Positions 4,450 to 59,524 of a stretch of DNA of 64,000 nt are shown here, one piece after another. Below the pieces are notes generated by a model. The model saw only the letters and a list, made by a program, of their open reading frames with translations. It ran no database searches and had not been told where the DNA came from. This DNA comes from Aradus depressus. Taxonomy: Eukaryota > Arthropoda > Insecta > Hemiptera > Aradidae. The stretch lies in the NCBI GenBank assembly GCA_963662175.1, contig OY759214.1, forward strand, positions 103,502,115 to 103,566,114, written 5' to 3'. The translations under genes were made by a program, and so were the position numbers. Position 1 is the stretch's first letter, and the number at the start of each line of letters is the position of its first letter.

Positions 4450-6870
4450 AGTTCCTTCCATTACCTGCTTCGGTTCTGTTATGGCAGACCCGAAGCAGTG
4501 GAAACGTCTGCTTTCTAGTGCCCCGCACCGGCTTAGAATATGAACCGGAGTCTCATTTTCCTCGCCACATTTCCTGCACAGAGGGCTTCTAGCGATGCCC
4601 ATATTGTATAGGTGTTTGTTCATATGACAGTGTCCTGTAATCAGCCCTGTCGTAGCTCTTAGATCCATTCTGCTCATATTCAGGAGTTCTCGGCTCCTTT
4701 TCTCTGAGGGTTCCGCTATAAAGAGTTTTGAATGCCTTTACTTTGGGACCCCTCTCCAGAACTGGATGTGATTCCTGGTCAGCCAACCATTTATTGCCGC
4801 CCTTGCGGTGCTCTTAGAGATCCCGCAGAAAGGTTCCGGTCCTATAGGTTTTCTGTCAGCTCCTGACCGGGCCAGTTGATCAGCCCTTTCGTTGCCCTCA
4901 AACCCCCGGTGCCCTGGCACCCATCTCAATTCCACTCTATTCTGGTCCATCAGGGACTCCAGTGCTTGAAGGCATTCTAGGACGATTTTGGAATCTATGA
5001 TGACAGCTCGCAGCGCTTGCAGCGCTGCTTGGCTGTCAGACAATATCAAGATTCGCCCTCCCCTGATGTTCCGTCTCTTAATGAGCCAGGCACACCCGAG
5101 GATGGCATATACTTCAGCTTGGAACACAGTAGGATACACACCTAGGGATATACTAGTATCTCCCCTGACTGTCCTCCCATGTATTCCAGCTCCAACTCCT
5201 CTCTCGGTTTTTGAGCCGTCTGTGAACCAGACCAGCTTATCCCGATCTTGGGTCTCGAGTTCCAGACAGTAGTTACTTCTGTCTGGTATTGATACTTTAA
5301 TTTTCCTATTAAAGTTGAAAACTGGTATCATTTTGTCTGAGCTCATGTTTAGTACAGGGTCTTCCAAAATGTCCCAGAAGATTACTGAATGCCCGGCTCT
5401 CGGTGTGTTGTCCGGTATTAGGTTATTTGTTTTCAGCCTATAGGCTCCCCTTCTTGCCTCCGCTTTCACCATCAAGAAGAGTGGGGGGAGGTTTAGAAGG
5501 GTTTCCATGGCTGCTGTTGGGGTGGTGCTCATGGCCCCAGTGATTCCCAAGCAGGCAAGTCTTTGGACTTTTTCCAGTTGTTTCCTCCTTTGTCCCGTAT
5601 CGGCTTTCTGCCACCAGACTAAGGAGTTGTAAGTTATTATGGGTCTCACTACCGTTGTGTACATCCAGTGTACCATTTTGGGATTGAGGCCCCATGTTTT
5701 GCCAAAGGAGCGCCTGCAGGCCCATAGAGCCCTGGTCGCTTTCTTTGTTATTTTCTCTACGTGTGGAGTCAACTTGGTATCTAGTAAAGTTCCCAAGTAT
5801 TTGGCCTCCCTCGATAGAGGTATAGCATGCCCTTGGAGGAAGGGACTTCTGATGTCCCTTATGTTCCTCTTTTGGGTGAAGTATGCACAGGTTACCTTTT
5901 GTGCATTTATTTTAAGGTTCTCCTTGGTGCACCATCTACTGACATGCTCCAATGCCGTGTTCATAATTTCAACCACGGTATTTGGGAACCTGCCACTGAT
6001 GAAGATCACAAGGTCATCAGCATAGCCTTGTGTATAATATCCATTGTTGCTGAGTTCCAGCAAGAGCTCGTCGACAACCAAGCACCACAATAGAGGTGAT
6101 AATACCCCTCCCTGCGGACACCCGGCTGCCGGCACTGCCCTTAACCTGCTCAGTCCCAAAGTTGTGTTTATAATGCTGCCTTTCAGCATGTTCTCGATCC
6201 ATCGTCATATGATGTCGTCGGTTCCACGCCTTCGGACAGAATTTATTATCGTTGATACCGAGGTATTGTCAAAAGCGCCCTCGATGTCAAGAAAGGCTCC
6301 CAAGGCAAATTCCTTGTTTAGTAGAGTCCTCTCTATTTTCTGTGTCAGCTCATGTAAAGCCAATTCACAGGATTTACCTTTTTGATAGGCAAACTGGTTT
6401 TGATGCAGAGGTGTTTCCTTCAACACCATGTCCCTGATATACCTATCTATCAGTTTCTCCATGGTTTTTAAGAGAAACGAGGTGAGACTAATGGGCCTAA
6501 ATGATTTTGCCTGGGCGTAGTTGTCTCGCCCTGGCTTTGGTATGAAAATCACTCTTACAGGTCTCCATTTGTCCGGAAGGAATCCCAGGGCCAGACTTGC
6601 CCTGAAGAGTCTGCACAGGGGACTTGCAAGTAGGTCCAGACCTTTCTGAAGAAGAATCGGTTGGACCTCATCCATCCCAGCTGATTTAAATGGTTTAAAC
6701 GACTTGATTGCCCATTCTACTTTACTCTGGTTTATGACTCGAGAGGCGAGCTGCCAGTCGTCTTTCTGAGCACTGTTTCTGGGTCTGCTTGCATAGCTCC
6801 ATCGATCATCCTCTGAGTCATCTAAGGTAGTGCACCTTGGGAAATGGGTCTGCACTAGTAAGTTTAGTGT
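4450..6870 (-). pseudogene. R1/LOA-like non-LTR element, RT and RNase H, 5'-truncated copy
   Basis: On the minus strand, from 6870 down, the reading frame encodes an RT (SFRPISLTSFLLKTMEKLID; FLDIEGAFDN motif A; GYADDLVIF catalytic box; CPQGGVLSPLLW). An RNase H follows (WFTDGSKTERGVGAG ... ILSDSQAALQAL ... WVPGHRGFEGNERADQLA), then a CxxC...H...C tail. It is the same family as 53105-59524. A TGA near 6205 breaks the frame within RT, and a TAA after VPK at 4738 separates RNase H from the Cys/His tail; the sister copy has the identical TAA. The 5' part (ORF1, endonuclease) is missing. Dead copy. Confidence 0.85.
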
Positions 6871-7780
6871 ATTACAATACATATACTGCCGACATTCCTA
6901 TCCATCCTCAGACATTACTGACGACTTACGCTGACGACACAGCAATCCTTTCCACCAATCCTGATCCTGCTGTAGCCTCACTCATCCTCCAGGAGCACCT
7001 CACTGAAATAGAGAGGTGGTGCAACCTCTGGAGAATTAAATTAAATGATGAATGTTCAAGTCACATTTACCCTACGCCGTCAATCCTGCCCTCCCGTCAT
7101 CATTAACAATATCCTCATTCCCTCTTCATACCAAGTTCGCTATCTCGGGTTTTACCTAGACAGTAGACTTACGTGGAACCCACATACACGACTTAAACGA
7201 CAAGAACTGAATCGAAGATACGGACTGTTACGTCGACTACTTGAACCAAAATCGAAACTGATGACTACCAACAAACTTACGATTCACAAGACCATTATAC
7301 GTCCAATTTGGACTTACGGACTCGAACTTTGGGGTACAGCTAAACAATCCAACATCAATCGTATCCAAGCATTCCAGTCCAAACTCCTCCGACGAATTGT
7401 CAACGCTCCTTTCTTTGTAACCAATAAAGTCCTACACAGAGATCTCAGTATTCCCACTGTAAATGAATTAATCAAATCCCGATTCCAATCATTCCACAGA
7501 ATCCTTTCTTCCCATTCAAATCCTCTCGCACAAGACCTTTCCTCTGATTCCCATCCTGACAATCCTCCCAGCCGCTTGAACAGGAGGTGGCCTCGCGATC
7601 TTCTCTCGGAGGATAGTGAATAATGACAATTAACTTTCGAGGGAGTGTCAGCGCTGGCTGGCTTCTCCCATCAAGTGATGTTACATTTTTCTTTTACCAC
7701 ATATTTGCTTATTTCGTATATATTGTATATAGATTGCAAATAGAATAAAAAAGAAAAAAAAAAAAAAGAAAAAATAAGAT
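6871..7780 (+). pseudogene. Jockey-like retrotransposon 3' fragment with A-rich tail
   Basis: Codes for the end of a Jockey RT. The catalytic TYADDTAIL box lies near 6930, followed by the thumb (VRYLGFYLDSRLTW ... IIRPIWTYGLELWG) and a C-terminal NRRWPRDLL ending at 7623. One frameshift near 7050-7100 splits it into two frames. An A-rich tail (7740-7780) closes the insertion. Its 5' end abuts the truncated 5' end of the opposite-strand element at 6870, so one inserted into the other or both were cut at the same point. Confidence 0.8.
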
Positions 7781-10225
7781 AAAACTGAATAATGGGATTA
7801 TTTTATAAAATAATGAAATGAAATTGTTCTTCACTGAACAGTTAGTTCCTTTTAAATAAGATAATACTGAACAGTTCATTCTTTTTAACTAAGATAATAC
7901 TGAATAATGGGATTATTTTATAAAATAATGAAATGAAATTGTTCTTCACTGAACAGTTCATTCCTTTTAAATAAGATAATACTGAACAGTTCATTCTTTT
8001 TAACTAAGATAATACTGAATAATGGAATTATTTTATAAAATAATGAAATGAAATTGTTCTTCACTGAACAGTTCATTCCTTTTAAATAAGATAATACTGA
8101 ATGATGGGATTATTTTATAAAATAATGAAATGAAATTGTTCTTCACTGAACAGTTTATTCTTTTTAAATAAGATAATACTGAATGATGGGATTATTTTAT
8201 AAAATAATGAAATGAAATTGTTCTTCACTGAACAGTTCATTCTTTTTAAATCAGATAATACTGAATGATGGGATTATTTTATAAAATAATGAAATGAAAT
8301 TGTTCTTCACTGAACAGTTCATTCTTTTTAAATAAGATAATACTGAATGATGGGATTATTTTATAAAATAATGAAATGAAATTGTTCTTCACTGAACAGT
8401 TCATTCTTTTTAAATAAGATAATACTGAATGATGGGATTATTTTATAAAATAATGAAATGAAATTGTTCTTCACTGAACAGTTCATTCCTTTTAAATAAG
8501 ATAATACTGAACGATGGGATTATTTTATAAAATAATGAAATGAAATTGTTCTTCACTGAACAGTTCATTCTTTTTAACTAAGATAATACTGAATGATGGG
8601 ATTATTTTATAAAATAATGAAATGAAATTGTTCTTCACTGAACAGTTCATTCTTTTTAAATAAGATAATACTGAACGATGGGATTATTTTATAAAATAAT
8701 GAAATGAAATTGTTCTTCACTGAACAGTTCATTCTTTTTAAATAAGATAATACTGAATGATGGGATTATTTTATAAAATAATGAAATGAAATTGTTCTTC
8801 ACTGAACAGTTCATTCTTTTTAAATAAGATAATACTGAATGATGGGATTATTTTATAAAATAATGAAATGAAATTGTTCTTCACTGAACAGTTCATTCGT
8901 TTTAAATAAGATAATACTGAACAGTTTATTCTTTTGAAATAAGATAATACTGAATAATGGGATTATTTTATAAAATAATGAAATGAAATTGTTCTTCACT
9001 GAACAGTTCATTCCTTTTAAATAAGATAATACTGAACAGTTCATTCTTTTTAACTAAGATAATACTGAATAATGGAATTATTTTATAAAATAATGAAATG
9101 AAATTGTTCTTCACTGAACAGTTCATTCCTTTTAAATAAGATAATACTGAATGATGGGATTATTTTATAAAATAATGAAATGAAATTGTTCTTCACTGAA
9201 CAGTTTATTCTTTTTAAATAAGATAATACTGAATGATGGGATTATTTTATAAAATAATGAAATGAAATTGTTCTTCACTGAACAGTTCATTCTTTTTAAA
9301 TCAGATAATACTGAATGATGGGATTATTTTATAAAATAATGAAATGAAATTGTTCTTCACTGAACAGTTCATTCTTTTTAAATAAGATAATACTGAATGA
9401 TGGGATTATTTTATAAAATAATGAAATGAAATTGTTCTTCACTGAACAGTTCATTCTTTTTAAATAAGATAATACTGAATGATGGGATTATTTTATAAAA
9501 TAATGAAATGAAATTGTTCTTCACTGAACAGTTCATTCCTTTTAAATAAGATAATACTGAACGATGGGATTATTTTATAAAATAATGAAATGAAATTGTT
9601 CTTCACTGAACAGTTCATTCTTTTTAACTAAGATAATACTGAATGATGGGATTATTTTATAAAATAATGAAATGAAATTGTTCTTCACTGAACAGTTCAT
9701 TCTTTTTAAATAAGATAATACTGAACGATGGGATTATTTTATAAAATAATGAAATGAAATTGTTCTTCACTGAACAGTTCATTCTTTTTAAATAAGATAA
9801 TACTGAATGATGGGATTATTTTATAAAATAATGAAATGAAATTGTTCTTCACTGAACAGTTCATTCTTTTTAAATAAGATAATACTGAATGATGGGATTA
9901 TTTTATAAAATAATGAAATGAAATTGTTCTTCACTGAACAGTTCATTCGTTTTAAATAAGATAATACTGAACAGTTTATTCTTTTGAAATAAGATAATAC
10001 TGAATAATGGGAGTATTTTATAAAATAATGAAATTAAATTGTTCTTCACTGAACAGTTCATTCCTTTTAAATAAGATAATACTGAACATTTCATTCTTTT
10101 TAAATAAGATAATACTGAATAATGGAATTATTTTATATAATAATGGAATTATTTTATAAAATAATAAAATTAACTTGTTCTTCACTGAACAGTTCATTCC
10201 TTTTAAATAAGGTAATACTGAATAA
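7772..10225 (+). repeat. 82-bp AT-rich satellite with 1050-bp higher-order repeat
   Basis: Tandem copies of an 82-base unit containing ggattattttataaaat, ttgttcttcactgaacag and a ttaaataagataatac linker. Some units are replaced by shorter ~30-base linker repeats. Variant units recur with a period of 1050: for example the attcgtttt variant at about 8895 and 9945, and the ataatggaatta variant at about 8020 and 9070. That implies block duplication on top of the monomer array. The small ORFs inside are by-products of the repeat. Confidence 0.95.
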
Positions 10226-37179: not shown

Positions 37180-40100
37180 TTATATTTATTTCCGTTAAAC
37201 TGTAGCATGATAGATAGACGACCCCTTGGCCACCACCCTCTCCTCCCTGAACAGTTGAAAGAATAATATTATTTATTTCCGTTAAACTGTAAGATGATGG
37301 ATAGATGACCCCTCGGCCACCACCTTCTCCTCCCTGAACAGTTGAAAGAATAATACTATTTATTTCCGTTAAACTGTAAGATGATGGATAGACGACTCCT
37401 CGGCCACCACCTTCTCCTCCTTGAACAGTTGGAGGAATAATACTATTTATTTCCGTTAAACTGTAAGATGATGGATAGACGACTCCTCGGCCACCACCTT
37501 CTCCTCCCTGAACAGTTGAAAGAATAATACTATTTATTTCCGTTAAACTGTAAGATGATGGATAGACGACCCCTCGGCCACCACCTTCTCCTCCCTGAAC
37601 AGTTGAAAGAATAATGCTATTTATTTCCGTTAAACTGTAAGATGATGGATAGACGACCCCTCGGCCACCAACTTCTCCTCCCTGAACAGTTGAAAGAATA
37701 ATACTATTTATTTCCGTTAAACTGTAAGATGATGGATAGACGACCCCTCGGCCACCACCTTCTCCTCCCTGAACAGTTGAAAGAATAATACTATTTATTT
37801 CCGTTAAACTGTAAGATGATGGATAGACGACTCCTCGGCCACCACCTTCTCCTCCCTGAACAGTTGAAAGAATAATACTATTTATTTCCGTTAAACTGTA
37901 AGATGATGGATAGACAACCCTCGGCCACCACCTTCTCCTCCCTGAACAGTTGAAAGAATAATACTATTTATTTCCGTTAAACTGTAAGATGATGGATAGA
38001 CGACTCCTCGGCCACCACCTTCTCCTCCCTGAACAGTTGAAAGAATAATACTATTTATTTCCGTTAAACTGTAAGATGATGGATAGACGACCCCTCGGCA
38101 TCCACCTTCTCCTCCCTGAACAGTTGAAAGAATAATGCTATTTATTTCCGTTAAACTGTAAGATGATGGATAGACGACCCCTCGGCCACCACCTTCTCCT
38201 CCCTGAATAGTTGAAAGAATAATACTATTTATTTCCGTTAAACTGTAAGATGATGGATAGACGACCCCTTGGCCACCACCTTCTCCTCAACGAACAGTTG
38301 AAAGAATAATACTATTTATTTCCGTTAAACTGTAAGATGATGGATAGACGATTCCTCGGCCACCACCTTCTCCTCCCTGAACAGTTGAAAGAATAATACT
38401 ATTTATTTCCGTTAAACTGTAAGATGATGGATAGACGACCCCTCGGCCACCACCTTCTCCTCCACCTTCTCCTCCCTGAACAGTTGAAAGAATAATATTA
38501 TTTATTTCCGTTAAACTGTAAGATGATGGATAGACGACTCCTCGGCCACCACCTTCTCCTCCCTGAACAGTTGAAAGAATAATACTATTTATTTCCGTTA
38601 AACTGTAAGATGATGGATAGACGACCCCTCGGCCACCACATTCTCCTCCCTGAACAGTTGAAAGAATAATATTATTTATTTTCCGTAAAACTGTAAGATG
38701 ATGGATAGACGACTCCTCGGCCACCACCTTCTCCTCCCTGAACAGTTGAAAGAATAATACTATTTATTTCCGTTAAACTGTAAGATGATGGACAGACGAC
38801 CCCTCGGCCACCACCTTCTCCTCCCTGAACATTTGAAAGAATAATACTATTTATTTCCGTTAAACTGTAAGATGATGGATGGACGACTCCTCGGCCACCA
38901 CCTTCTCCTCCCTGAACAGTTGAAAGAATAATACTATTTATTTCCGTTAAACTGTAAGATGATGGATAGACGACTCCTCGGCCACCACCTTCTCCTCCCT
39001 GAACAGTTGAAAGAATAATACTATTTATTTCCGTTAAACTGTAAGATGATGGACAGACGACCCCTCGGCCACCACCTTCTCCTCCCTGAACATTTGAAAG
39101 AATAATACTATTTATTTCCGTTAAACTGTAAGATGATGGATAGACGACTCCTCGGCCACCACCTTCTCCTCCCTGAACAGTTGAAAGAATAATACTATTT
39201 ATTTCCGTTAAACTGTAAGATGATGGACAGACGACCCCTCGGCCACCACCTTCTCCTCCCTGAACAGTTGAAAGAATAATACTATTTATTTCCGTTAAAC
39301 TGTAAGATGATGGATAGACGACTCCTCGGCCACCACCTTCTCCTCCCTGAACAGTTGAAAGAATAATACTATTTATTTCCGTTAAACTGTAAGATGATGG
39401 ATAGACGACTCCTCGGCCACCACCTTCTCCTCAATGAACAGTTGAAAGAATAATACTATTTATTTCCGTTAAACTGTAAGATGATGGATAGACGACTCCT
39501 CGGCCACCACCTTCTCCTCCCTGAACAGTTGAAAGAATAATACTATTTATTTCCGTTAAACTGTAAGATGATGGACAGACGACCCCTCGGCCACCACCTT
39601 CGCCTACCTGAACATTTGAAAGAATAATACTATTTATTTCCGTTAAACTGTAAGATGATGGATAGACGACTCCTCGGCCACCACCTTCTCCTCCCTGAAC
39701 AGTTGAAAGAATAATACTATTTATTTCCGTTAAACTGTAAGATGATGGACAGACGACCCCTCGGCCACCACCTTCTCCTACCTGAACATTTGAAAGAATA
39801 ATACTATTTATTTCCGTTAAACTGTAAGATGATGGATAGACGACTCCTCGGCCACCACCTTCTCCTCCCTGAACAGTTGAAAGAATAATACTATTTATTT
39901 CCGTTAAACTGTAAGATGATGGATAGACGACTCCTCGGCCACCACCTTCTCCTCCCTGAACAGTTGAAAGAATAATACTATTTATTTCCGTTAAACTGTA
40001 AGATGATGGACAGACGACCCCTCGGCCACCACCTTCTCCTCCCTGAACATTTGAAAGAATAATACTATTCATTTCCGTTAAACTGTAAGATGATGGATAG

Positions 40101-40215
40101 ACGACTCCTCGGCCACCACCTTCTCCCTGAACAGTTGAAAGAATAATACTATTTATTTCCGTTAAACTGTCACATGATAGATAGACGACCCCTCGGCCAC
40201 CACCTTCGCCTCCCT
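37180..40215 (-). repeat. 87-bp satellite array
   Basis: About 35 copies of an 87-base unit (ttatttccgttaaactgtaa, gatgatggatagacgac, cctcggccaccaccttct, cctccctgaacagttgaaag). Variants ggacagacgacccc and gaacatttg alternate in the right half, giving a two-unit higher-order pattern. The unit is 29 codons long, so the minus strand is open for hundreds of bases without being a gene. Confidence 0.95.
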
Positions 40216-40550
40216 GAAAGGAAGGAAGGGAGCAGAAAATGGAGAAAGGTGGCAGAAATTATGTTTCAGTTTAAAATATTGCGGAATGTTATTATAATAG
40301 ATCTATTATAATAACATTCCGCAATATTTTAAACTGAAACATAATTTCTGCCACCTTTCTCTCTTTTCTGCTCCCTTCCTTCCTTTCAGGGAGGCGAAGG
40401 TGGTGGCCGAGGGGTCGTCTATCTATCATGTGACAGTTTAACGGAAATAAATAGTATTATTCTTTCAACTGTTCAGGGAGAAGGTGGTGGCCGAGGAGTC
40501 GTCTATCCATCATCTTACAGTTTAACGGAAATAAATAGTATTATTCTTTC
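40053..40550. repeat. ~500-bp palindrome ending the 87-bp array
   Basis: Inverted arms meet at AGATCT (40299-40304). Each arm has about 105 bases of unique sequence next to the centre (aacattccgcaatattttaa on the right side), then about 1.7 satellite units. Even private variants are mirrored (cacatgatag, and a 3-base deletion in cttctccctga), so the inversion copied this very end of the array. A few differences exist near gagaaagg. Bases 40551-40742 after it are short unique sequence with a cccggcgttgcccgg word. Confidence 0.92.
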
Positions 40551-43500
40551 ATCTATGTTAGTAAACCCCTTTTGGTCCGCTTCGCTCGCTCGTTGAGTAG
40601 AAACATTTGTATTATGTTGGGACAATATTGGCGCGCTCCTCGTCTCTCGTTTTTTTTATAAAATCACTAGCAGTAATACCCGGCGTTGCCCGGGGAACTA
40701 TGTATGTTGGTCCCACCCAATCTGACTAAATAAATTGATGAGAGTAGAAGGGAAATGGGGACTTTGGATCAGTTGCCCCTCATGACCTTTGACCCCACGG
40801 GGTCACGTGACCTTCACCCCCCGCCACCGCCACTCCCCCCATCCTTCCCAGCTCCGAATCACCCACCATCGTACATCCCCAGCTCAATAAGTTTCCACTC
40901 TCCCTCTAAACCTCAATAAGTTTCCGCTCTCCCTCTAAACCTCGATAAGCCCCCCCCCCCTCCCCTAATTTTTTCATCTCAATTTTTGTCCTTTGAATCA
41001 CTACCAATCTACTTCCTCATCGTTTTTGCATGCATTATACATGTTCAAACATGTCGAGACCTGTTGTTGCAGGCATACTTCACCAATTTTTATTTCATGA
41101 TTTAATCTTACATCCCCACGTCAATTAACACATCCAATGTGCTTCCCCATCTCAATACCCCCGCTCTCCCTCCGATTCACTACTCTCTATCTTCAGTATA
41201 GCGGCGTAGCCAATCCATCTCAATTTTCTCACTTATACTTCCCCACCTAATTCTCCCTTTAAACCTTTTACTCAGACACACATCCAAGCAATTTTCTTTA
41301 GATTTCATCATAGTCCACTACTCTTAGCACCATCATGCTTCGCCCCTGTTCAACACCTACAACCTCTCTAGATCGTCTGACATTTTCATCATAACCCGGT
41401 CAACCCATACATAAACCTACATTCTACGTCCATTAGCCTTTCCCTCTGAGTCAGTCAAACTTACCCACCTCAAATCATCTTCAATGCACATACCCACATC
41501 AATTATTCTAAAACATAATCTTTAATTATAATAGTTCTACTTCCTGAGACCTATTAGACTTCTTCCAACCGGCAGAGACTTTGCAACCCACACCTAATCC
41601 TCAGGTCTTTCTCCTAATTTTTATGACTCACTTCTACTTCCCCACATCAATCGTCTAATTGTTTTTTCTCAACTTGTCCTTACCAATTTTCTGTTCTCTA
41701 CTTCTAAAACCTTTTACTCATACATACCCGCCCATACACGCGGAGTAATCTTTAGATCTAGATGTACCTTTCCATGGATACATTCTTAGGCTAACATGCA
41801 GTATATTCAACTTACGTTATGTTACATACTACTTCTCATCTCCAGCACTTAACTTACTTAGCACCTCTACTGTATTCCAATCCTCGTTTATAGCGGTCAA
41901 AACAATTTCTTTTTCCTTCCACCAACCGTCCTCTACTGTAATTGCTCTCCTAACCTTCTTAAACCCCCGCACAATTCTGACAACGACCAATCCATCCCAA
42001 TATTCTGCTCTCCACTTCTACTTCCCCAACATCATATCAAGTTAGAACCCTACAAGTGTAGACTACTCCCCCGTCAACATTTCTTTCTCATTCAAACCAC
42101 TTCTATCCCACCTCTCACTCAGACATACCTGCACACTTGCATCACATGCAGAAAATCAAATTTAAATGCTTCTCCCTACCTAAACCGCCAGGTCAACACC
42201 CCCACAGTTCTCGTCGATATTTAGATTCGCGTTTCCAATATTACTTTACCATCACTATTTTTACGACTAATAACCTACAATCTAGCAGGAACTTAAATTA
42301 TCCCCCTGCACAACACTACTCCGGATATATTCAGAACCCACTCCCACACATCTGAGCACCAATAGAACTCTAACCTAGGACCCCTGCTGTGTAGGCTCAC
42401 TCACATTGGTACCTGTCAACCCATCTTTATAACTGCAAAAGCCGGGGGTAATTTCATATTCAAGTATTTTTCCTAAGATTTCATACTGATGAAGGCTCTA
42501 GACCCCTTCATCACCAACGAGATCAGTTAAAGAACTATTTTATAACACAGCCCCAACGTACATATAAGGTGTGTCCAATACAATAGGAACTCTTCTTATA
42601 TAGCTATCCTAAGAAGAAGTCATTGAAAACTTTACCCACTGAGCCGGATAATTATTTATAGTAGAGATACTAATATTTTTTGAATGGGTAGGCGGCCTTG
42701 TGTAACATTTCATTATCAGAAATTAGCTGTGATGTACTTTTCTACAAATCAGAGACTATGCAGAGACAATAGAATCCTTCCGAGAGATCCAATATATCGT
42801 CACGACACAACACTTCACAAAAATACGGAATTGTTCACCTATCCCTATAAACATCACTCAACTGCAACTTCCCCAAATCTAAAAAACTTAGAAGTCGCTC
42901 GGACACATTTTAAAAACCCCACCACTCTTCTATATACTTCCTCAGCTAAATTCTTTCCCTGGTTCCCCTCTATAGTATATCTTAAACTCTAAAGTAACCC
43001 CAACCCGAACACCATTCCTATCAATCTAAACTTTTATTTCTCAGTCATGCACCATAGATAGGGTTTTCTATAGGTGCTATCACCAATCTCCTACATGCAT
43101 ATATATATATATAATATATTTTCTATAGTTCCCCCGACATTTTTCTACAACTAACACTCAACCGTTCCTCAATTAATATTATAACGCAGCCCTCACACCC
43201 ATACTCCATTGTATTTATTTTTCAAGTCCCAAGCTCTTCGTCTAATATACATCACAGTTCCCACCGGTATTTGAGAACCCATATAGTATTATTGTTCCAT
43301 CCTCACCCACATCTCATGGACCCCACAATTCACCCCTCCTTCCCCGCATATATGGTATTGAGAGCCAAAACTCTTACGATGACCCAATACAACAGTTATT
43401 TTACCGATTCATCTTCATAGCCACAAAACCCGGGATTATTTAATATTTTAGTATATTTCTTTTTTCATTATTTGTCACAGTTTTTTTTTCCCCACATACA

Positions 43501-43902
43501 ACGCCTACTCCACTCAACTGTTTTTTCTTAAAGTCCTATACATATCTTACATCCTTTCATATATTTATTTTTTATTTAGTCATATTATTTTATATTTTAT
43601 GCGATTAATATTTATTTACATTTTCGAAAATTTACGTAAATTATGAAAATTTTGTAGCATATTCAGGAACATTTTTTGTGATGAATGTGACTGCGTAATA
43701 ACTATCGTGATTATAAGAAAAATTGGTGAGTACAAGCTGGTCAGTATTAAGAAATAAAAATCGTATATAGGTTCCATATCATAGGCAGTTTCTTATTGTT
43801 GTTGGGGCTAGGTGTATTGCTGGAAACCCATTAATGATCGGCTCTTCTCGGCTCGTCTCGGATTTTATCGGCTCCTTTCGTTGCATGTAGGATGAAAAAA
43901 AC

Positions 43903-43927
43903 TATAAATACGTTCTGTTTGGTCAGT
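43903..43927 (+). promoter_or_regulatory. candidate TATA box and initiator for the left-arm ORF pair
   Basis: TATAAATA at 43903-43910, followed by TCAGT at 43923-43927, is the only core-promoter-like combination upstream of the ATG at 44096. The spacing (about 22) is shorter than the usual 30. A second TATA-poor copy of the same words (aaatacggtctgtttggt) follows at about 44027. The mirrored site exists at 48832-48857 on the minus strand. Confidence 0.3.
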
Positions 43928-44095
43928 AGTTATCTGTTTTCATTGTGAACGTGTTAACAACTTTGAGATAAATACAATCTGATCATTCACTATTTATTGA
44001 ACCGAAGTTGTCAACCCTGCTACAATAAATACGGTCTGTTTGGTGATTATTAGGCAGACTTCATTGATCTAGTAATCCACAGCAGGTTAGATACC

Positions 44096-44626
44096 ATGGG
44101 GGTCAAACGAAACGCTCTCACTATAGAAAATAAAATAAAAATAATTAAACTTTTTGATGAAGGAGAAAAGGTTGGAGAAATATCGAAACATTTCAAGATT
44201 CCTCAATCCACGATTTCTTCAATTTTAAAGAGGCGAGCAACCATTTTTCAATTAGATACATGTGGTAAAAGACATATTAAACGAATTAGAACTAATGGTG
44301 GAACACACTCCCAGAATACACCCCCACTTGCCTTCAACGGAGAGAATTACACACAACAACACACAGACTCTTCAGAGGACGATGTGGGTGAACACTCCAG
44401 TTCATCACAACAGCAAACGGTCTCTTCACAGCATGATTCGGGTGAAGACGGAAGTGAACGAATTCATTCAACAGAACACCGAAGAGTAGTATATGGTGAT
44501 AAAAAACCAACAAAAAAGTTCAACCTTCCTAAACCCGTAAAAGGCTTAATACCTCTGTCTAAGGAAAATATGACGTTTTTACGTTTGGTCGGGTATAAAG
44601 TTCTGTCATCAACGTATAGATGTTAG
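44096..44626 (+). CDS. HTH (CENP-B/pogo-type N-terminal) protein, left arm
   Basis: 176 codons with a good initiation context (taccATGG). Residues about 3-50 (KRNALTIENKIKIIKLFDEG ... VGEISKHFKIPQSTISSILKRR) form a helix-turn-helix of the CENP-B N-terminal/pogo-transposase type, which binds DNA. The rest is a low-complexity S/Q/D/H-rich linker (about 95-130) and a basic C-terminus (KKPTKKFNLPKPVKGLIPL). The DDE catalytic domain that follows this HTH in pogo/Tigger transposases is absent. Probably a terminal-repeat-binding or regulatory protein of the element. It overlaps the next ORF by 7 bases, and an identical gene lies in the other arm at 48133-48663. Confidence 0.75.
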   Translation: MGVKRNALTIENKIKIIKLFDEGEKVGEISKHFKIPQSTISSILKRRATIFQLDTCGKRHIKRIRTNGGTHSQNTPPLAFNGENYTQQHTDSSEDDVGEHSSSSQQQTVSSQHDSGEDGSERIHSTEHRRVVYGDKKPTKKFNLPKPVKGLIPLSKENMTFLRLVGYKVLSSTYRC

Positions 44627-44940
44627 ATTTGGATAGTTCAAAGAGGGGTTCGGGTATCATTTTCATTACCGAAGCCATCGGGGGTATAGATGGAATAAGA
44701 AAATCTGTTCGACATGAAAACACTCACACTTTGCCATCATATAGGTTTATCTATTTAAAAGGTAGATTTTTTCAAGGAGAATGGGACAACGACAGTTGCA
44801 ACATTCTAAAAGCGGGTTTTGTTCAATTCCAGTGCTTCCTGGGTAATAACTCGGACTATATTTTGAAGGATATATCAATAATGGGCATTAACTTTATTGG
44901 GAATAGGTACACAGCATATCACAAACGAAAAGATTATTAA
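44620..44940 (+). CDS. unknown 106-residue protein, overlapping the HTH ORF, left arm
   Basis: Starts at an ATG inside the last codons of the HTH ORF (ATGTTAG overlap) in the -1 frame. This suggests termination-reinitiation, a -1 frameshift producing a fusion, or a one-base indel in a once single ORF. The protein contains GSGIIFITEAIGGIDGIRKS, a beta-rich YRFIYLKGRFFQGEWDND stretch and two cysteines. No family recognised. Because the frame is preserved identically in both arms, it may be real. Confidence 0.5.
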   Translation: MLDLDSSKRGSGIIFITEAIGGIDGIRKSVRHENTHTLPSYRFIYLKGRFFQGEWDNDSCNILKAGFVQFQCFLGNNSDYILKDISIMGINFIGNRYTAYHKRKDY

Positions 44941-45396
44941 AAAGAATCAAATCGAATGCTGTGAGGTTGAAGGCTTGGAGAGGCTATAAACGCACGCAGG
45001 TCGTATGAGTGAAGGTTTGGAGAGGATATAGATGCCCGCAGACCAGTGTGATCACCAGCAGTTCTAAATGTTGAAAACACTGATTTGAGGAAAAGTAGGA
45101 GAGTACAATCGTGTTAATATGCCTGTATTTTTGATTTGCAGGAAAGGGCCTTGCCCCTTTTTATTCATGCTTTGTATCCAAAAGTATATATATTTCAGTT
45201 TTCATTTGACTATATGCTTATATCATCTCTTTGTGAGAGCGGTTCTAAATCTGCTGGGTAAGTTTCGTTCTTGATCAGTGTATACATGTACCCCCAAAAT
45301 CCTGTTCCTTTGAACCAAATTCAACTCAGTCAAATCGATTCAAATCCCTATATTATACTGCAATATTCTCGCTCAAACATCACTACACTCTCCTTC

Positions 45397-47362
45397 TAGT
45401 TATAACGATATCGCTATATTTATAACGATATTACTGTAGTTATAACGATATCGCTATATTTATAACGATATTACTGTAGTTATAACAATATCGCTATATT
45501 TATAACGATATCACAGTAGTTATAACGATATCCCTATATTTATAACGATATCACAGTAGTTATAACGATATCGCTATATTTATAACGATATTACTGTAGT
45601 TATAACGATATCGCTATATTTATAACGATATCACAGTAGTTATAACGATATCGCTATATTTATAACGATATCACAGTAGTTATAACGATATCGCTATATT
45701 TATAACGATATTACTGTAGTTATAACGATATCGCTATATTTATAACGATATCGCTATATTTATAACGATATCGTTATAAATATAACGATATCACAGTAGT
45801 TATAACGATATCACTGTAGTTATAACGATATCGCTATATTTATAACGATATTACTGTAGTTATAACGATATCGCTATATTTATAACGATATTACTGTAGT
45901 TATAACAATATCGCTATATTTATAACGATATCACAGGAGTTATAACGATATCGCTATATTTATAACGATATCACAGGAGTTATAACGATATCGCTATATT
46001 TTTAACGATATCACAGTAGTTATAACGATATCGCTATATTTATAACGATATCACAGTAGTTATAACGATATCGCTATATTTATAACGATATTACTTTAGT
46101 TATAACGATATCGCTATATTTATAACGATATTACTGTAGTTATAACGATATCGCTATATTTATAACGATATCACAGGAGTTATAACGATATCGCTATATT
46201 TATAACGATATTACTGTAGTTATAACGATATCACTATATTTATAACGATATCACAGGAGTTATAACGATATCGCTATATTTATAACGATATCACAGTAGT
46301 TATAACGATATCGCTATATTTATAACGATATCACAGTAGTTATAACGATATCGCTATATTTATAACGATATCACAGTAGTTATAACGATATCGCTATATT
46401 TATAACGATATTACTGTAGTTATAAAGATATCGCTATATTTATAACGATATCAAAGGAGTTATAACGATATCGCTATATTTACAACGATATCACAGTAGT
46501 TATAACGATATCGCTATATTTATAACGATATCACAGGAGTTATAACGATATCGCTATATTTATAACGATATCACAGGAGTTATAACGATATCGCTATATT
46601 TTTAACGATATCACAGTAGTTATAACGATATCGCTATATTTATAACGATATCACAGTAGTTATAACGATATCGCTATATTTATAACGATATTACTTTAGT
46701 TATAACGATATCGCTATATTTATAACGATATTACTGTAGTTATAACGATATCGCTATATTTATAACGATATCACAGGAGTTATAACGATATCGCTATATT
46801 TATAACGATATTACTGTAGTTATAACGATATCGCTATATTTATAACAATATCACAGTAGTTATAACGATATCACTATATTTATAACGATATCACAGGAGT
46901 TATAACGATATCGCTATATTTATAACGATATCACAGGAGTTATAACGATATCGCTATATTTATAACGATATCACAGTAGTTATAACGATATCGCTATATT
47001 TATAACGATATCACAGTAGTTATAACGATATCGCTATATTTATAACGATATTACTTTAGTTATAACGATATCGCTATATTTATAACGATATTACTGTAGT
47101 TATAACGATATCGCTATATTTATAACGATATCACAGGAGTTATAACGATATCGCTATATTTATAACGATATTACTGTAGTTATAACGATATCGCTATATT
47201 TATAACGATATCACAGTAGTTATAACGATATCGCTATATTTATAACGTTATTACTGTAGTTATAACGATATCACAGTAGTTATAACGATATCGTTATAAA
47301 TATAGCGATATCGTTATAACTACAGTAATATCGTTATAAATATAGCGATATCGTTATAACTA
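45397..47362 (+). repeat. 20/40-bp GATATC satellite forming the palindrome loop
   Basis: Alternating 20-mers tataacgatatcgctatatt and tataacgatatcacagtagt (or ...attactgtagt), about 98 units. Each contains GATATC inside a near-perfect dyad ATAACGATATCGTTAT. The array points one way from 45397 to about 47287, then the last ~75 bases are inverted and mirror its beginning. The loop proper is therefore 45472-47287, and the array predates the inversion. Confidence 0.95.
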
Positions 47363-47818
47363 GAAGGAGAGTGTAGTGATGTTTGAGCGAGAATATTGCA
47401 GTATAATATAGGGATTTGAATCGATTTGACTGAGTTGAATTTGGTTCAAAGGAACAGGATTTTGGGGGTACATGTATACACTGATCAAGAACGAAACTTA
47501 CCCAGCAGATTTAGAACCGCTCTCACAAAGAGATGATATAAGCATATAGTCAAATGAAAACTGAAATATATATACTTTTGGATACAAAGCATGAATAAAA
47601 AGGGGCAAGGCCCTTTCCTGCAAATCAAAAATACAGGCATATTAACACGATTGTACTCTCCTACTTTTCCTCAAATCAGTGTTTTCAACATTTAGAACTG
47701 CTGGTGATCACACTGGTCTGCGGGCATCTATATCCTCTCCAAACCTTCACTCATACGACCTGCGTGCGTTTATAGCCTCTCCAAGCCTTCAACCTCACAG
47801 CATTCGATTTGATTCTTT

Positions 47819-48139
47819 TTAATAATCTTTTCGTTTGTGATATGCTGTGTACCTATTCCCAATAAAGTTAATGCCCATTATTGATATATCCTTCAAAATA
47901 TAGTCCGAGTTATTACCCAGGAAGCACTGGAATTGAACAAAACCCGCTTTTAGAATGTTGCAACTGTCGTTGTCCCATTCTCCTTGAAAAAATCTACCTT
48001 TTAAATAGATAAACCTATATGATGGCAAAGTGTGAGTGTTTTCATGTCGAACAGATTTTCTTATTCCATCTATACCCCCGATGGCTTCGGTAATGAAAAT
48101 GATACCCGAACCCCTCTTTGAACTATCCAAATCTAACAT
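47819..48139 (-). CDS. unknown 106-residue protein, right arm copy
   Basis: Identical in translation to the left-arm ORF at 44620-44940, with the same 7-base overlap with its upstream neighbour. Maintained by arm-to-arm identity. Function unknown. Confidence 0.5.
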   Translation of the reverse strand: MLDLDSSKRGSGIIFITEAIGGIDGIRKSVRHENTHTLPSYRFIYLKGRFFQGEWDNDSCNILKAGFVQFQCFLGNNSDYILKDISIMGINFIGNRYTAYHKRKDY

Positions 48140-48663
48140 CTATACGTTGATGACAGAACTTTATACCCGACCAAACGTAAAAACGTCATATTTTCCTTAG
48201 ACAGAGGTATTAAGCCTTTTACGGGTTTAGGAAGGTTGAACTTTTTTGTTGGTTTTTTATCACCATATACTACTCTTCGGTGTTCTGTTGAATGAATTCG
48301 TTCACTTCCGTCTTCACCCGAATCATGCTGTGAAGAGACCGTTTGCTGTTGTGATGAACTGGAGTGTTCACCCACATCGTCCTCTGAAGAGTCTGTGTGT
48401 TGTTGTGTGTAATTCTCTCCGTTGAAGGCAAGTGGGGGTGTATTCTGGGAGTGTGTTCCACCATTAGTTCTAATTCGTTTAATATGTCTTTTACCACATG
48501 TATCTAATTGAAAAATGGTTGCTCGCCTCTTTAAAATTGAAGAAATCGTGGATTGAGGAATCTTGAAATGTTTCGATATTTCTCCAACCTTTTCTCCTTC
48601 ATCAAAAAGTTTAATTATTTTTATTTTATTTTCTATAGTGAGAGCGTTTCGTTTGACCCCCAT
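48133..48663 (-). CDS. HTH (CENP-B/pogo-type N-terminal) protein, right arm copy
   Basis: Identical in translation to 44096-44626 and transcribed towards the central satellite, so the two gene pairs converge on the loop. The start ATG (catgg on the + strand at 48661) keeps the same context. See the left-arm copy for domains. Confidence 0.75.
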   Translation of the reverse strand: MGVKRNALTIENKIKIIKLFDEGEKVGEISKHFKIPQSTISSILKRRATIFQLDTCGKRHIKRIRTNGGTHSQNTPPLAFNGENYTQQHTDSSEDDVGEHSSSSQQQTVSSQHDSGEDGSERIHSTEHRRVVYGDKKPTKKFNLPKPVKGLIPLSKENMTFLRLVGYKVLSSTYRC

Positions 48664-51600
48664 GGTATCTAACCTGCTGTGGATTACTAGATCAATGAAG
48701 TCTGCCTAATAATCACCAAACAGACCGTATTTATTGTAGCAGGGTTGACAACTTCGGTTCAATAAATAGTGAATGATCAGATTGTATTTATCTCAAAGTT
48801 GTTAACACGTTCACAATGAAAACAGATAACTACTGACCAAACAGAACGTATTTATAGTTTTTTTCATCCTACATGCAACGAAAGGAGCCGATAAAATCCG
48901 AGACGAGCCGAGAAGAGCCGATCATTAATGGGTTTCCAGCAATACACCTAGCCCCAACAACAATAAGAAACTGCCTATGATATGGAACCTATATACGATT
49001 TTTATTTCTTAATACTGACCAGCTTGTACTCACCAATTTTTCTTATAATCACGATAGTTATTACGCAGTCACATTCATCACAAAAAATGTTCCTGAATAT
49101 GCTACAAAATTTTCATAATTTACGTAAATTTTCGAAAATGTAAATAAATATTAATCGCATAAAATATAAAATAATATGACTAAATAAAAAATAAATATAT
49201 GAAAGGATGTAAGATATGTATAGGACTTTAAGAAAAAACAGTTGAGTGGAGTAGGCGTTGTATGTGGGGAAAAAAAAACTGTGACAAATAATGAAAAAAG
49301 AAATATACTAAAATATTAAATAATCCCGGGTTTTGTGGCTATGAAGATGAATCGGTAAAATAACTGTTGTATTGGGTCATCGTAAGAGTTTTGGCTCTCA
49401 ATACCATATATGCGGGGAAGGAGGGGTGAATTGTGGGGTCCATGAGATGTGGGTGAGGATGGAACAATAATACTATATGGGTTCTCAAATACCGGTGGGA
49501 ACTGTGATGTATATTAGACGAAGAGCTTGGGACTTGAAAAATAAATACAATGGAGTATGGGTGTGAGGGCTGCGTTATAATATTAATTGAGGAACGGTTG
49601 AGTGTTAGTTGTAGAAAAATGTCGGGGGAACTATAGAAAATATATTATATATATATATATGCATGTAGGAGATTGGTGATAGCACCTATAGAAAACCCTA
49701 TCTATGGTGCATGACTGAGAAATAAAAGTTTAGATTGATAGGAATGGTGTTCGGGTTGGGGTTACTTTAGAGTTTAAGATATACTATAGAGGGGAACCAG
49801 GGAAAGAATTTAGCTGAGGAAGTATATAGAAGAGTGGTGGGGTTTTTAAAATGTGTCCGAGCGACTTCTAAGTTTTTTAGATTTGGGGAAGTTGCAGTTG
49901 AGTGATGTTTATAGGGATAGGTGAACAATTCCGTATTTTTGTGAAGTGTTGTGTCGTGACGATATATTGGATCTCTCGGAAGGATTCTATTGTCTCTGCA
50001 TAGTCTCTGATTTGTAGAAAAGTACATCACAGCTAATCTCTGATAATGAAATGTTACACAAGGCCGCCTACCCATTCAAAAAATATTAGTATCTCTACTA
50101 TAAATAATTATCCGGCTCAGTGGGTAAAGTTTTCAATGACTTCTTCTTAGGATAGCTATATAAGAAGAGTTCCTATTGTATTGGACACACCTTATATGTA
50201 CGTTGGGGCTGTGTTATAAAATAGTTCTTTAACTGATCTCGTTGGTGATGAAGGGGTCTAGAGCCTTCATCAGTATGAAATCTTAGGAAAAATACTTGAA
50301 TATGAAATTACCCCCGGCTTTTGCAGTTATAAAGATGGGTTGACAGGTACCAATGTGAGTGAGCCTACACAGCAGGGGTCCTAGGTTAGAGTTCTATTGG
50401 TGCTCAGATGTGTGGGAGTGGGTTCTGAATATATCCGGAGTAGTGTTGTGCAGGGGGATAATTTAAGTTCCTGCTAGATTGTAGGTTATTAGTCGTAAAA
50501 ATAGTGATGGTAAAGTAATATTGGAAATGCGAATCTAAATATCGACGAGAACTGTGGGGGTGTTGACCTGGCGGTTTAGGTAGGGAGAAGCATTTAAATT
50601 TGATTTTCTGCATGTGATGCAAGTGTGCAGGTATGTCTGAGTGAGAGGTGGGATAGAAGTGGTTTGAATGAGAAAGAAATGTTGACGGGGGAGTAGTCTA
50701 CACTTGTAGGGTTCTAACTTGATATGATGTTGGGGAAGTAGAAGTGGAGAGCAGAATATTGGGATGGATTGGTCGTTGTCAGAATTGTGCGGGGGTTTAA
50801 GAAGGTTAGGAGAGCAATTACAGTAGAGGACGGTTGGTGGAAGGAAAAAGAAATTGTTTTGACCACTATAAACGAGGATTGGAATACAGTAGAGGTGCTA
50901 AGTAAGTTAAGTGCTGGAGATGAGAAGTAGTATGTAACATAACGTAAGTTGAATATACTGCATGTTAGCCTAAGAATGTATCCATGGAAAGGTACATCTA
51001 GATCTAAAGATTACTCCGCGTGTATGGGCGGGTATGTATGAGTAAAAGGTTTTAGAAGTAGAGAACAGAAAATTGGTAAGGACAAGTTGAGAAAAAACAA
51101 TTAGACGATTGATGTGGGGAAGTAGAAGTGAGTCATAAAAATTAGGAGAAAGACCTGAGGATTAGGTGTGGGTTGCAAAGTCTCTGCCGGTTGGAAGAAG
51201 TCTAATAGGTCTCAGGAAGTAGAACTATTATAATTAAAGATTATGTTTTAGAATAATTGATGTGGGTATGTGCATTGAAGATGATTTGAGGTGGGTAAGT
51301 TTGACTGACTCAGAGGGAAAGGCTAATGGACGTAGAATGTAGGTTTATGTATGGGTTGACCGGGTTATGATGAAAATGTCAGACGATCTAGAGAGGTTGT
51401 AGGTGTTGAACAGGGGCGAAGCATGATGGTGCTAAGAGTAATGGACTATGATGAAATCTAAAGAAAATTGCTTGGATGTGTGTCTGAGTAAAAGGTTTAA
51501 AGGGAGAATTAGGTGGGGAAGTATAAGTGAGAAAATTGAGATGGATTGGCTACGCCGCTATACTGAAGATAGAGAGTAGTGAATCGGAGGGAGAGCGGGG

Positions 51601-51827
51601 GTATTGAGATGGGGAAGCACATTGGATGTGTTAATTGACGTGGGGATGTAAGATTAAATCATGAAATAAAAATTGGTGAAGTATGCCTGCAACAACAGGT
51701 CTCGACATGTTTGAACATGTATAATGCATGCAAAAACCATTTCAAGGTCTAGGATGTCTTCAGATTGGAGAAAACGCAAAATTACTAATAAATGATTGTT
51801 GAAATAAAAAAAACAAGAATTCACAAA

Positions 51828-52285
51828 TAACACCAAAGGACAGCGTGCTCGGAATTGAAGATAAATGCTTTTTTTTCCATCATATTACTCCAGTTTAAAA
51901 TAATACTGAATATGACGAGCTTTGAATTATATTTTTAAATGCAATACTTTTCAAGGCACCGAAGGACGGCATGCTCAAAAGTGTAGGTAGGCGATTTTTC
52001 CATCATATTACTCCAATCGGACAACATACTCAATATGACGAGCTTTGAATTATATTTTTAAATGCAATACTTTTCAAGGCACCGAAGGACGGCATGCTCA
52101 AAAGTGTAGGTAGGCGATTTTTCCATCATATTACTCCAATCGGACAACATACTCAATATGACGAGCTTTGAGTTATATTTTTAAATGCAATACTTTTCAA
52201 GGCACCGAAGGACGGCATGCTCAAAATTGTAGGTAGGCGATTATTCCATCATTATACTTCAGTTTAAAATAATACTGAATACAAT
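51828..52285 (-). repeat. ~122-bp tandem repeat inside the right arm only
   Basis: About 3.5 copies with caaggcaccgaaggacggca, tgctcaaaagtgtaggtagg and actcaatatgacgagctttg. It lies in the 51738-52440 segment that the left arm lacks, so it was gained by the right arm or lost by the left. No coding content. Confidence 0.88.
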
Positions 52286-52969
52286 GATCATGCTAGGACA
52301 TGATATGGTAGGCTACACGAATGCAGGGTTCGACATGTTAGATCACGAAAGTGCCTGTTCAAGGTCACGAAATCAGTCTTTAAAAATATAAAAATTGTTA
52401 CTAGTGGGCTAATTAAAAAAAAAAAATAGGGGCACAGGCGAGGGGTGAGATAAAAATGTAAAGCAGGGTTTAGAGGGAGAGCGGAAACTTATTGAGGTTT
52501 AGAGAGAGAGCTGAAACTTATTGAGGTTTAGAGGGAGAGCGGAAACTTATTAAGGTTTAGGGAGAGAGCTGAAATTTATTGAGGTTTAGAGGGAGAGCGG
52601 AAACTTATTGAGGTTTAGAGGGAGAGCGGAAACTTATTGAGGTTTAGAGGGAGAGTAGAAACTTATTGAGCTGGGGATGTACGATGGTGGGTGATTCGGA
52701 GCTGGGAAGGGTGGGGGGGAGTGGTGGTGGTGGGGGGTGATGGGTCACGTGACCCCGTGGGGTCAAAGGTCATGAGGGGCAACTGATCCAAAGTCCCCAT
52801 TTCCCTTCTACTGATGAGCAGAAATATAATGAGAAACGTTTTTTTCGTAGTAGGTAATTTCACGAAAAAAGAAGCATGCATCTGAAAAAAAATTAGAATT
52901 TATCAATTTTTATTTACACTTCCAATCAACTATAAACTCCAAAGCCGTTATAGATGATAACTGAAGACT

Positions 52970-56205: not shown

Positions 56206-59200
56206 TAAATATAGTTGGTGAAATCAGACAATATCATAAATAAACAAGTTTTATTTCTTTCAAGTTCATTTGAATTATTTCACAATATCTCTGCAATAAT
56301 GTCAGTTTTCATAATCTAGAAATAATGAATCGCGGTAACAAACCCACCTTTGTGACACAAAATAGGAGGGAGGTTATCGACATCACACTGGGCTCACACT
56401 ATATATATACCAGGATCAAAAATTGGCATGTGTCTGAGGAAACAACTGTATCATATCACAGATACATTAGATTCGACATTCCAAATGTTGAACTTCAAAC
56501 ATTTGAGTTCAGGAATCCAAGAAATACGGACTGGGAAGGCTATAATAGCCGACTGGAAAAAATTCTGGGAGGAGACTCAAATGAACCGAAATCGTTTGAG
56601 GACATAGACTGCTTAAACGAAAACATTACATTGGCGGTGGGCCAGCATTCGAGGAAAATTGCCCTCTGAAAGCTAAAAAAGTGCAGAGGGAGGTTCCATG
56701 GTGGAACTCGAATCTAAGCGATCTAAGGGCAAAAACCCGGAAACTTTTCAACGCCGCCAAGCCTACAGGACAGTGGGGTACTTACAAAAGTTCCCTCACT
56801 GAATACAATCTAGCCTTGAGGAAGGCAAAGATAGATACATGGAGGAGGATGTGTCAGGAAGTAGAAAACATACCTGCCGGATCCAAACTCCATAAAATAC
56901 TTTCAAGGGGACCGTTGGAAAAAATCGGAACCTTGGAAACTCCTGAAGGAAGTCAAACAACTTCGGAAAGGGATACACTAAACTTACAAGTGCAGACCCA
57001 TTTCCCGAGGTGCACTACCTTAGGTGACTCAGAGGAAGATCCAGGGAGCTATGCAAGCAGACCCAGAAACAGGGCTCATAAAGACGACTGGCAGCTCACC
57101 TCTCGAGTCATAAACCAGAGTTAAATAGAATGGGCAATCAAGTCGTTTAAACCATTTAAATCAGCTGGGATGGATGAGGTCCAACCGATTCTTCTTCAGA
57201 AAGTTCTGGACCTACTTGCAAGTCCCCTGTGCAGACTTTTCAGGGCAAGTCTGGCCCTGGGACTTCTTCCGGACAAATCGAGACCTGTAAGAGTGATTTT
57301 CATACCAAAGCCAGGGCGAGATAACTACGCCCAGGCAAAATCATTTAGGCCCATTAGTCTCACCTCGTTTCTCTTAAAAACCATGGAGAAACTGATAGAT
57401 AGGTATATCAGGGAAATGGTGTTGAAGGAAACACCTCTGCATCAGAACCAGTTTGCCTATCAAAAAGGTAAATCCTGTGAATTGGCTTTACATGAGCTGA
57501 CACAGAAAATAGAGAGGACTCTACTAAACAAGGAATTTGCCTTGGGAGCCTTTCTTGACATCGAGGGCGCTTTTGATAATACCTCGGTATCAACGATAAT
57601 AAATTCTGTCCGAAGGCGTGGAACCGACGACATCATATGCAGATGGATCGAGAACATGCTGAAAGGCAGAATTATAAACACAACTTTGGGACTAAATAGG
57701 TTAAGCAGTGCCGGCAGCCGGGTGTCCGCAGGGAGGGGTATTATCCCCTCTATTGTGGTGCTTGATTGTCGACGAGCTCTTGCTGGAACTCAGCAACAAT
57801 GGATTTTATACACAAGGCTATGCTGATGACCTTGTGATCTTCATCAGTGGCAGGTTATCAAATACCGTGGTTGAAATTATGAACAAGGCATTGGAGCATG
57901 TCAGTAGATGGTGCACCAGGGAGAACCTTAAAATAAATGCAAAAAAGGTAACCTGTGCATACTTCACCCAAAAGAGGAACATAAGGGACATCAGAAGTCC
58001 CTTCCTCCAAGGGCATGGTATACCTCTGTCGAGGGAGGCCAAATACTTGGGAACTGTACTAGATACCAAGCTGACCTGGACTCCACACGTAGAGAAAATA
58101 ACAAAGAAAGCAACCAGGGCTCTATGGGCCTGCAGGCGCTCCTTTGGCAAAACATGGGGCCTCAATCCCAAAATGGTACACTGGATGTACACAACGGTAG
58201 TGAGACCCATAATAACGTACAACTCCTTAGTCTAGTGGCAGAAAGCCGATACGGGACAAAGGAGGAAACAACTGGAAAAAGTCCAAAGACTTGCCTGCTT
58301 AGGAATCACTGGGGCCATGAGCACCACCCCAACAGCAGCCATGGAAACCCTTCTAAACCTCCCCCCACTCTTCTTGATGGTGAAAGCGGAGGCAAGAAGG
58401 GGAGCCTATAGGCTGAAAACAAATAACCTAATACCGGACAACACACCGAGAGCCGGGCATTCAGTAATCTTCTGGGACATTTTGGAGGAACCTGTACTAA
58501 ACATGAGCTCAGACAAAATGATACCAGTTTTCAACTTTAATAGGAAAATTAAAGTATCAATACCAGACAGAAGTAACTACTGTCTGGAACTCGAGACCCA
58601 AGATCGGTATAAGCTGGTCTGGTTCACAGACGGCTCAAAAACCGAGAGAGGAGTTGGAGCTGGAATACATGGGAGGACAGTCAAGGGAGATACTAGTATA
58701 ACCCTAGGGGTGTATCCTACTGTGTTCCAAGCTGAAGTATATGCCATCCTCGGGTGTGCCTGGCTCATTAAGAGACGGAACATCAGGGGAGGGTGAATCT
58801 TGATATTGTCTGACAGCCAAGCAGCGCTGCAAGCGTTGCGAGCTGTCATCATAGATTCCAAAATCGTCCTAGAATGCCTTCAAGCACTGGAGTCCCTGAC
58901 GGATCAGAATAGAGTGGAATTGAGATGGGTGCCAGGGCACCGGGGGTTTGAGGGCAACGAAAGGGCTGATCAACTGGCCCGATCAGGAGCTGACGGTAAA
59001 CCTATAGGACCGGAACCCTTCTGCGGGATCTCTAAGAGCACCGCAAGGGCGGCAATAAATGGTTGGCTGACCAGGAATCACATCCAGTTCTGGAGAGGGG
59101 TCCCAAAGTAAAGGCATTCAAAACTCTTTATAGCGGAACCCTCAGAGAAAAGGAGCCGAGAACTCCTGAATATGAGCAGAATGGATCTAAGAGCTACGAC

Positions 59201-59524
59201 AGGGCTGATTACAGGACACTGTCATATGAACAAACACCTATACAATATGGGCATCGCTAGAAGCCCTCTGTGCAGGAAATGTGTCGAGGAAAATGAGACT
59301 CCGGTTCATATTCTAAGCCGGTGCGGGGCACTAGAAAGCAGACGTTTCCACTGCTTCGGGTCTGCCATAACAGAACCGAAGCAGGTAATGGAAGGAACCT
59401 GCAGAAGAATCCTGGACTATATCAAAAATGCAGGGCTGCTGTAGGGACCAACACACACAGTGCACACAATAGGCCTACTCTGGCCGTGGTGACACAAATC
59501 AGCCCTCGGAGAAAAAAAAAAATA

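Follow-up and report, generated by a model that had tools for sequence, protein, structure and literature searches.

Tetris, Tm1, and Galileo, the foldback-type elements closest in structure to the one analyzed here, share with it internally repetitive termini with unequal numbers of repeats, a middle domain or internal sequence that is partly captured or tandem, and a predominance of non-autonomous copies, as far as the available parts of their descriptions show (PMC4079207, PMC3169594, and PMC3573991, respectively). According to the accessible portion of PMC4079207, Tetris possesses terminal repeats of up to 1,735 bp and target duplications of 8–10 bp, conserved ORFs are absent from its copies, and it ties foldback-type elements to satellites. 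The target duplication of Tm1 is commonly 9 bp (PMC3169594, available text). Intact vertebrate Mavericks were reported to span 12,723–24,620 bp with terminal repeats of 46–1,447 bp, and the Mavericks of vertebrates to have a 6-bp duplication and the end motifs (AG)3 and (AGT)2 (PMC8097293, part of the text). For Ginger, the passages available in PMC2836005 give TGTNR ends and a duplication of 4–5 bp. Outside mobile elements, a spacer was present in all of the 21 junctions sequenced from inverted duplications of human chromosomes (766–70,466 bp, median 3,428), and in three of the 21 the orientation flipped inside homologous LINEs or SINEs, yielding a hybrid repeat (PMC3907307, as excerpted).

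We analyzed a window of 64,000 nucleotides of Aradus depressus (contig OY759214.1, positions 103,502,115–103,566,114; coordinates below are those of the window) and found a transposon-like insertion of 12,070 bp at 40743–52812. The borders are those proposed in an earlier sequence-only reading, and both the target duplication and the terminal repeats agree with them. GATGAG flanks the element as an exact direct duplication of 6 bp (40737–40742 on the left and 52813–52818 on the right), a match at two fixed places for which the base composition gives a chance expectation of approximately 1 in 3,278. The ends are of the AG...CT type as had been claimed (AGTAGA...TCTACT), and the sequences at the two ends are AGTAGAAGGG on the left and CCCTTCTACT on the right. 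The terminal inverted repeats of approximately 208 bp (207 bp at 40743–40949, forward strand; 209 bp at 52604–52812, reverse strand) were 96% identical, with 201 identities, six mismatches, and two gap columns in 209 alignment columns, and their outermost 70 bp matched perfectly. Both repeats contain a 29-bp tandem unit, of which approximately 2.3 copies were found on the left (40883–40949) and, in an array that continues inwards, approximately 7 on the right. Within the perfectly matching part (40783–40812 and 52743–52772), there are GGGTCAAAGGTCA and GGTCACGTGACC, which we take to look like a nuclear-receptor direct repeat and an E-box. A terminal stem-loop was rejected, as 156 of 200 shuffles folded at least as well (z 0.85). 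The rest of the window held one weak 82-bp match to the element (3529–3607; 76%, E 1e-4). Neither the exact terminal 20-mer in viral contigs nor a terminal 23-mer in prokaryote contigs had any match, an arthropod family being unexpected in both.

Inside the terminal repeats lies a separate inverted repeat, and the element thus comprises two, namely the terminal repeat and an inner palindrome. The left arm (41022–45471, forward strand), the last 72 bp of which are satellite, and the right arm (47288–51737, reverse strand) are 4,450 bp each, and position x from 41022 to 45471 mirrors position 92759-x. The two arms are 99.9% identical, with four mismatches and no indel; all of the four differences are transitions and two of them are at CpG sites. 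The mirror identity has abrupt limits at 41022 and 51737 and does not extend to the terminal repeats; stretches of 72 bp on the left (40950–41021) and 866 bp on the right (51738–52603) are unmirrored. The near-identical inverted arms noticed earlier are therefore real, albeit the single pair of approximately 4.7 kb assumed at that time merged two distinct inverted repeats. The repeats were also taken for nearly the whole element, and this overstates their share, as mirrored bases account for 9,316 of 12,070 (77%). The right stretch contains a 123-bp tandem repeat (51872–52252) and extra copies of the 29-bp repeat (from 52467), and it resembles the left stretch weakly and collinearly, the best match covering 35 bp (69%, E 0.02). 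CTCATC, the reverse complement of GATGAG, is at 41016–41021, immediately outside the left arm; it may have arisen by chance in this C-rich stretch. We also observed a GC skew of approximately -0.4 to -0.6 in eight of the nine 300-bp windows of the outer left arm (40743–43442), mirrored on the right.

The frequency of mismatches differs between the arms (four in 4,450) and the terminal repeats (six in 207; Fisher p 1.3e-6), and the two inverted repeats therefore have different histories. Either the arms postdate the divergence of the terminal repeats, or gene conversion maintains the similarity of the two arms. The four arm differences all fall within the outermost 38% (chance 0.02, for a division chosen post hoc), and 2,750 bp covering ORF1 and ORF2 (42722–45471; see below) are free of any difference, a clustering that hints at gene conversion of the inner part rather than mere youth. 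Two other origins of the palindrome and its outer arm were considered and rejected. For a nested insertion, the sequences compared at the two outer borders of the inner palindrome showed no matching direct repeats. For an outer arm made of degenerate 29-bp terminal repeats, the partial matches exceeded the shuffle mean, yet stayed within the range of 40 shuffles; at two of the five thresholds, it was the reverse-strand control that scored higher than every shuffle, and the test thus lends this origin no support.

The arms enclose an array of a 40-bp satellite (45400–47318, forward strand; 48 copies by TRF), whose unit consists of two 20-bp halves. The satellite keeps a single orientation from 45400 to approximately 47290 (approximately 1.9 kb) and then flips; the unmirrored spacer amounts to 1,816 bp (45472–47287, forward strand). 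A satellite loop had been proposed from the letters of the sequence, and a loop of tandem repeats is indeed present, but it is lopsided, as the inverted satellite next to the right arm measures no more than 72 bp. The flip is located inside a self-complementary satellite unit, a hybrid unit with the core CGATATCG and a 20-bp perfect palindrome (47280–47299). Past these 20 bp, the flanks of the dyad are not mirror images of each other, and the flip therefore joins two distinct units, which is not the structure of a zero-loop hairpin. At 45755–45784, the same variant unit yields a 30-bp perfect palindrome without any flip of orientation. A 27-mer of the satellite had no match in viral contigs, where an arthropod family is not expected.

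Each arm was said to carry the same pair of ORFs, and the DNA at 44096–44940 is indeed identical to its mirror copy in the right arm. Only ORF1 exceeds chance length and has a known domain. ORF1 (44096–44626, forward strand; right copy with identical DNA at 48133–48663, reverse strand) encodes 176 aa from ATG within an open frame of 190 and surpasses the longest frame of all of 500 shuffles of the region (maximum 180). A CENP-B-type N-terminal DNA-binding domain was detected at residues 4–50 (Pfam E 6.2e-12), and the protein matched the CENP-B chains 1bw6 (E 1.3e-5) and 1hlv (E 7.4e-5). A structure model from the single sequence was confident and helical at approximately residues 11–40 and poor elsewhere (mean pLDDT 54.6). 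Profiles of phage proteins matched ORF1 at the level of the helix-turn-helix only (best E 2.4e-5). None of 49 word-sharing candidates was a homologue of ORF1 at E 1e-3, and no relative was found in viral or prokaryote contigs, in which an arthropod family is not expected. ORF1 would be a captured gene. Upstream of it, a 20-bp sequence starting with ATAAATACG occurs twice with one difference, 121 bp apart (43903–43927 and 44025–44044). The first copy has TATAAATA and then TCAGT, which we presume to resemble an arthropod core promoter.

ORF2 (106 aa; 44620–44940, forward strand; right copy at 47819–48139, reverse strand) overlaps ORF1 by 7 bp. A frame at least as long was present in 75 of 500 shuffles, neither a Pfam family nor any of the phage-protein profiles matched, and the best PDB rows were at E 0.75 and 0.84. 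No homologue was found at E 1e-3 among three word-sharing candidates, nor in viral contigs, where an arthropod family is not expected; the predicted fold was discarded as unusable (mean pLDDT 32.8). With the open frame as its sole support, ORF2 might be no more than a chance frame. In the outer arm, no frame exceeds 120 aa, a length attained in 172 of 500 shuffles.

We scanned 22 frames against Pfam, namely 20 of at least 55 aa in the left half and two of at least 50 aa in the right stretch; ORF1 was taken from ATG, and the frames of the right arm were represented by those of the left arm, since the arms are mirror copies. None of the 22 frames contained a transposase catalytic domain, and the element is therefore likely non-autonomous. 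Likewise, polB, integrase, ATPase, protease, and capsid families were matched by none of the 22 frames at E 1 or better, in agreement with the absence of Polinton genes noted earlier, and the element is thus not a Polinton by content. Beyond the helix-turn-helix families of ORF1, Pfam returned three weak rows (E 0.15–0.17) below the cut-off. The ORF region matched no phage record, and neither tRNA genes nor Rfam families were found in the window. ORF1 has its CENP-B-type N-terminal DNA-binding domain in common with CENP-B proteins and with pogo/Tigger transposons, which encode a DDE transposase and generate a TA target duplication. We rejected membership in pogo/Tigger, as only the N-terminal domain was matched, with no DDE domain, and the duplication is GATGAG, not TA. 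Ginger is ruled out by the AGTAG ends and the 6-bp duplication.

The neighbourhood of the element contains further repeats. A second palindrome (40052–40551) lies 191 bp outside the element, with arms of 250 nt, three mismatches, and no spacer, and borders an 87-bp satellite whose array extends over 3 kb. It suggests a tendency to fold back, on the part of either the region or its assembly. A LINE-like stretch is present on both sides of the element (4451–6872 and 56973–59398), in copies of opposite orientation that are 96–99% alike and approximately 50 kb apart. At 400–2865 there is an open reverse-transcriptase frame of 821 aa with a weak GIY-YIG match, which we take to be Penelope-element-like. 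The named relatives of this protein are mostly of insects (Coccinella, mosquitoes, Diabrotica, Sitophilus, and ants), with springtails and flukes ranking lower, and the best identities are approximately 40%; such relatives point to an arthropod host. Further GIY-YIG pieces were found at 10884 and 17169, and the proteins of the neighbourhood altogether comprise reverse transcriptase, GIY-YIG, RNase H, and one DUF4780 protein. A satellite at 7775–10172 shows nested periods of 33, 82, 115, and 164 bp, seemingly repeating at approximately 1,050 bp.

We propose, with confidence that is evenly balanced, that the element is a non-autonomous DNA transposon-like element rebuilt by internal fold-back repair rather than a new Polinton. 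A strand may have broken inside the satellite, and the broken end would have paired with an earlier self-complementary satellite unit through the core CGATATCG. The folded end would then have primed synthesis, copying the left arm back outwards, and a join between the copied arm and the element's right end would have been the last step; this order of break, folding, and join is itself a reconstruction. In favour of fold-back are the different histories of the two inverted repeats, the abrupt ends of the mirror identity, the lack of a transposase catalytic domain in the 22 frames, and a satellite that runs one way for approximately 1.9 kb and flips inside a self-complementary unit, as a fold-back loop would leave it. 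The one-copy spacer of 1,816 bp and the hybrid satellite unit at the flip, together with the inverted copies, are common to this locus and the human fold-back duplications, in which, as far as the available part of PMC3907307 describes them, the events are large and chromosomal; here the scale is of kilobases, the rearrangement is inside a mobile element, and its far side adjoins the right end of that same element, unlike the human cases. A head-to-head join of two broken copies within the satellite would produce an identical sequence. Against fold-back, a single copy was analyzed and no single-arm progenitor was seen, the confinement of the arm differences to the outer 38% hints at gene conversion, and the CTCATC adjoining the left arm has no explanation under it. 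The one copy is compatible with a rearrangement either before or after insertion. From the GATGAG duplication, it follows that an element bearing these ends has been mobile, but not that the palindromic form has. The element probably lacks its own transposase and would be moved by a transposase encoded elsewhere.

Other origins of the arms have to be weighed against fold-back repair. The arms could be extended terminal repeats: repair of a break close to one terminus would have used the other terminus as template, with copying extended into internal sequence, as suggested for Galileo (TIR1-F1-F1-TIR2), and the 72- and 866-bp stretches would be later deletions or insertions. Such a mechanism was proposed for Galileo (PMC3573991, in the part available), the unequal tandem numbers in the two terminal repeats recall that element, and the weak match between the left and right stretches allows a once longer common terminus. 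Nevertheless, extra events are required to interrupt the mirror between terminus and arm while the arms stay so alike and free of indels, and a one-way satellite spacer flipping in a self-complementary unit is not predicted, so that we regard this extension as unlikely. We consider it a little less likely still that the element is a non-autonomous derivative or relative of Polinton/Maverick using a Polinton-type integrase, its palindrome being due to snap-back copying in linear protein-primed replication. The likeness is in the 6-bp duplication, the AGTAG end, and terminal repeats (207 and 209 bp) within the range of vertebrate Mavericks, and an expansion of inverted repeats reported for Polintons is mentioned in the available text of the Galileo paper (PMC3573991). 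Of the Polinton-like termini in the sequence-only reading, the 6-bp duplication stands, and the first hexamer AGTAGA shares five of six letters with (AGT)2, a motif reported for vertebrates that may not hold for arthropods. On the other hand, the core gene families are unmatched in all of the 22 frames, the element is shorter than intact vertebrate Mavericks and has a nested palindrome, and ORF1, ORF2, and the terminal 20-mer have no relatives in viral contigs. The hairpin or protein-primed intermediate suggested earlier fails on the same point as snap-back copying, which predicts one unbroken mirror of terminus plus arm, whereas 72 bp on the left and 866 bp on the right interrupt the mirror between arm and terminal repeat. 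A Polinton-type integrase may nonetheless move the element.

An error of assembly, in which a folded-back or chimaeric read caused the left half to appear in the contig once more in inverted orientation, is distinctly improbable in our view. The position of the flip within a satellite and the nearby second palindrome without spacer are what such an error might leave. However, the element has two different outer flanks with one and the same 6-bp duplication, and an error would thus require false joins both near 47289 and at 51737, and four transitions without an indel, half of them at CpG sites, resemble mutation and not read error. We find it highly improbable that the element represents a new class of arthropod elements with the palindrome as its working form, in which an integrase supplied from elsewhere would insert the Polinton-like ends and the CENP-B-like protein, encoded next to the satellite, would bind the self-complementary satellite units, these acting as a hairpin origin from which a single arm is copied to give two.

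Should the fold-back origin hold, the element would be an unusually large fold-back transposon. It has long inverted repeats around a middle domain, with the 4,450-bp arms enclosing the satellite and separate from the terminal repeat, and the 29-bp unit makes its termini internally repetitive. Unlike in Tetris, the arms are of 4,450 bp, end short of the termini, and hold an open frame, and the duplication is of 6 bp, as opposed to the 8–10 bp of Tetris and the usual 9 bp of Tm1; foldback is a structural class, and its lineages need not all share one length. Among the matches listed in the open-licence PMC literature, no title or opening of an abstract described a comparable element. If our proposal is true, very long inverted arms can be gained by fold-back at an internal satellite, not by the stretching of terminal repeats. 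Likewise, a frame for a CENP-B-type DNA-binding domain beside a satellite within a mobile element would bear on how satellites spread.
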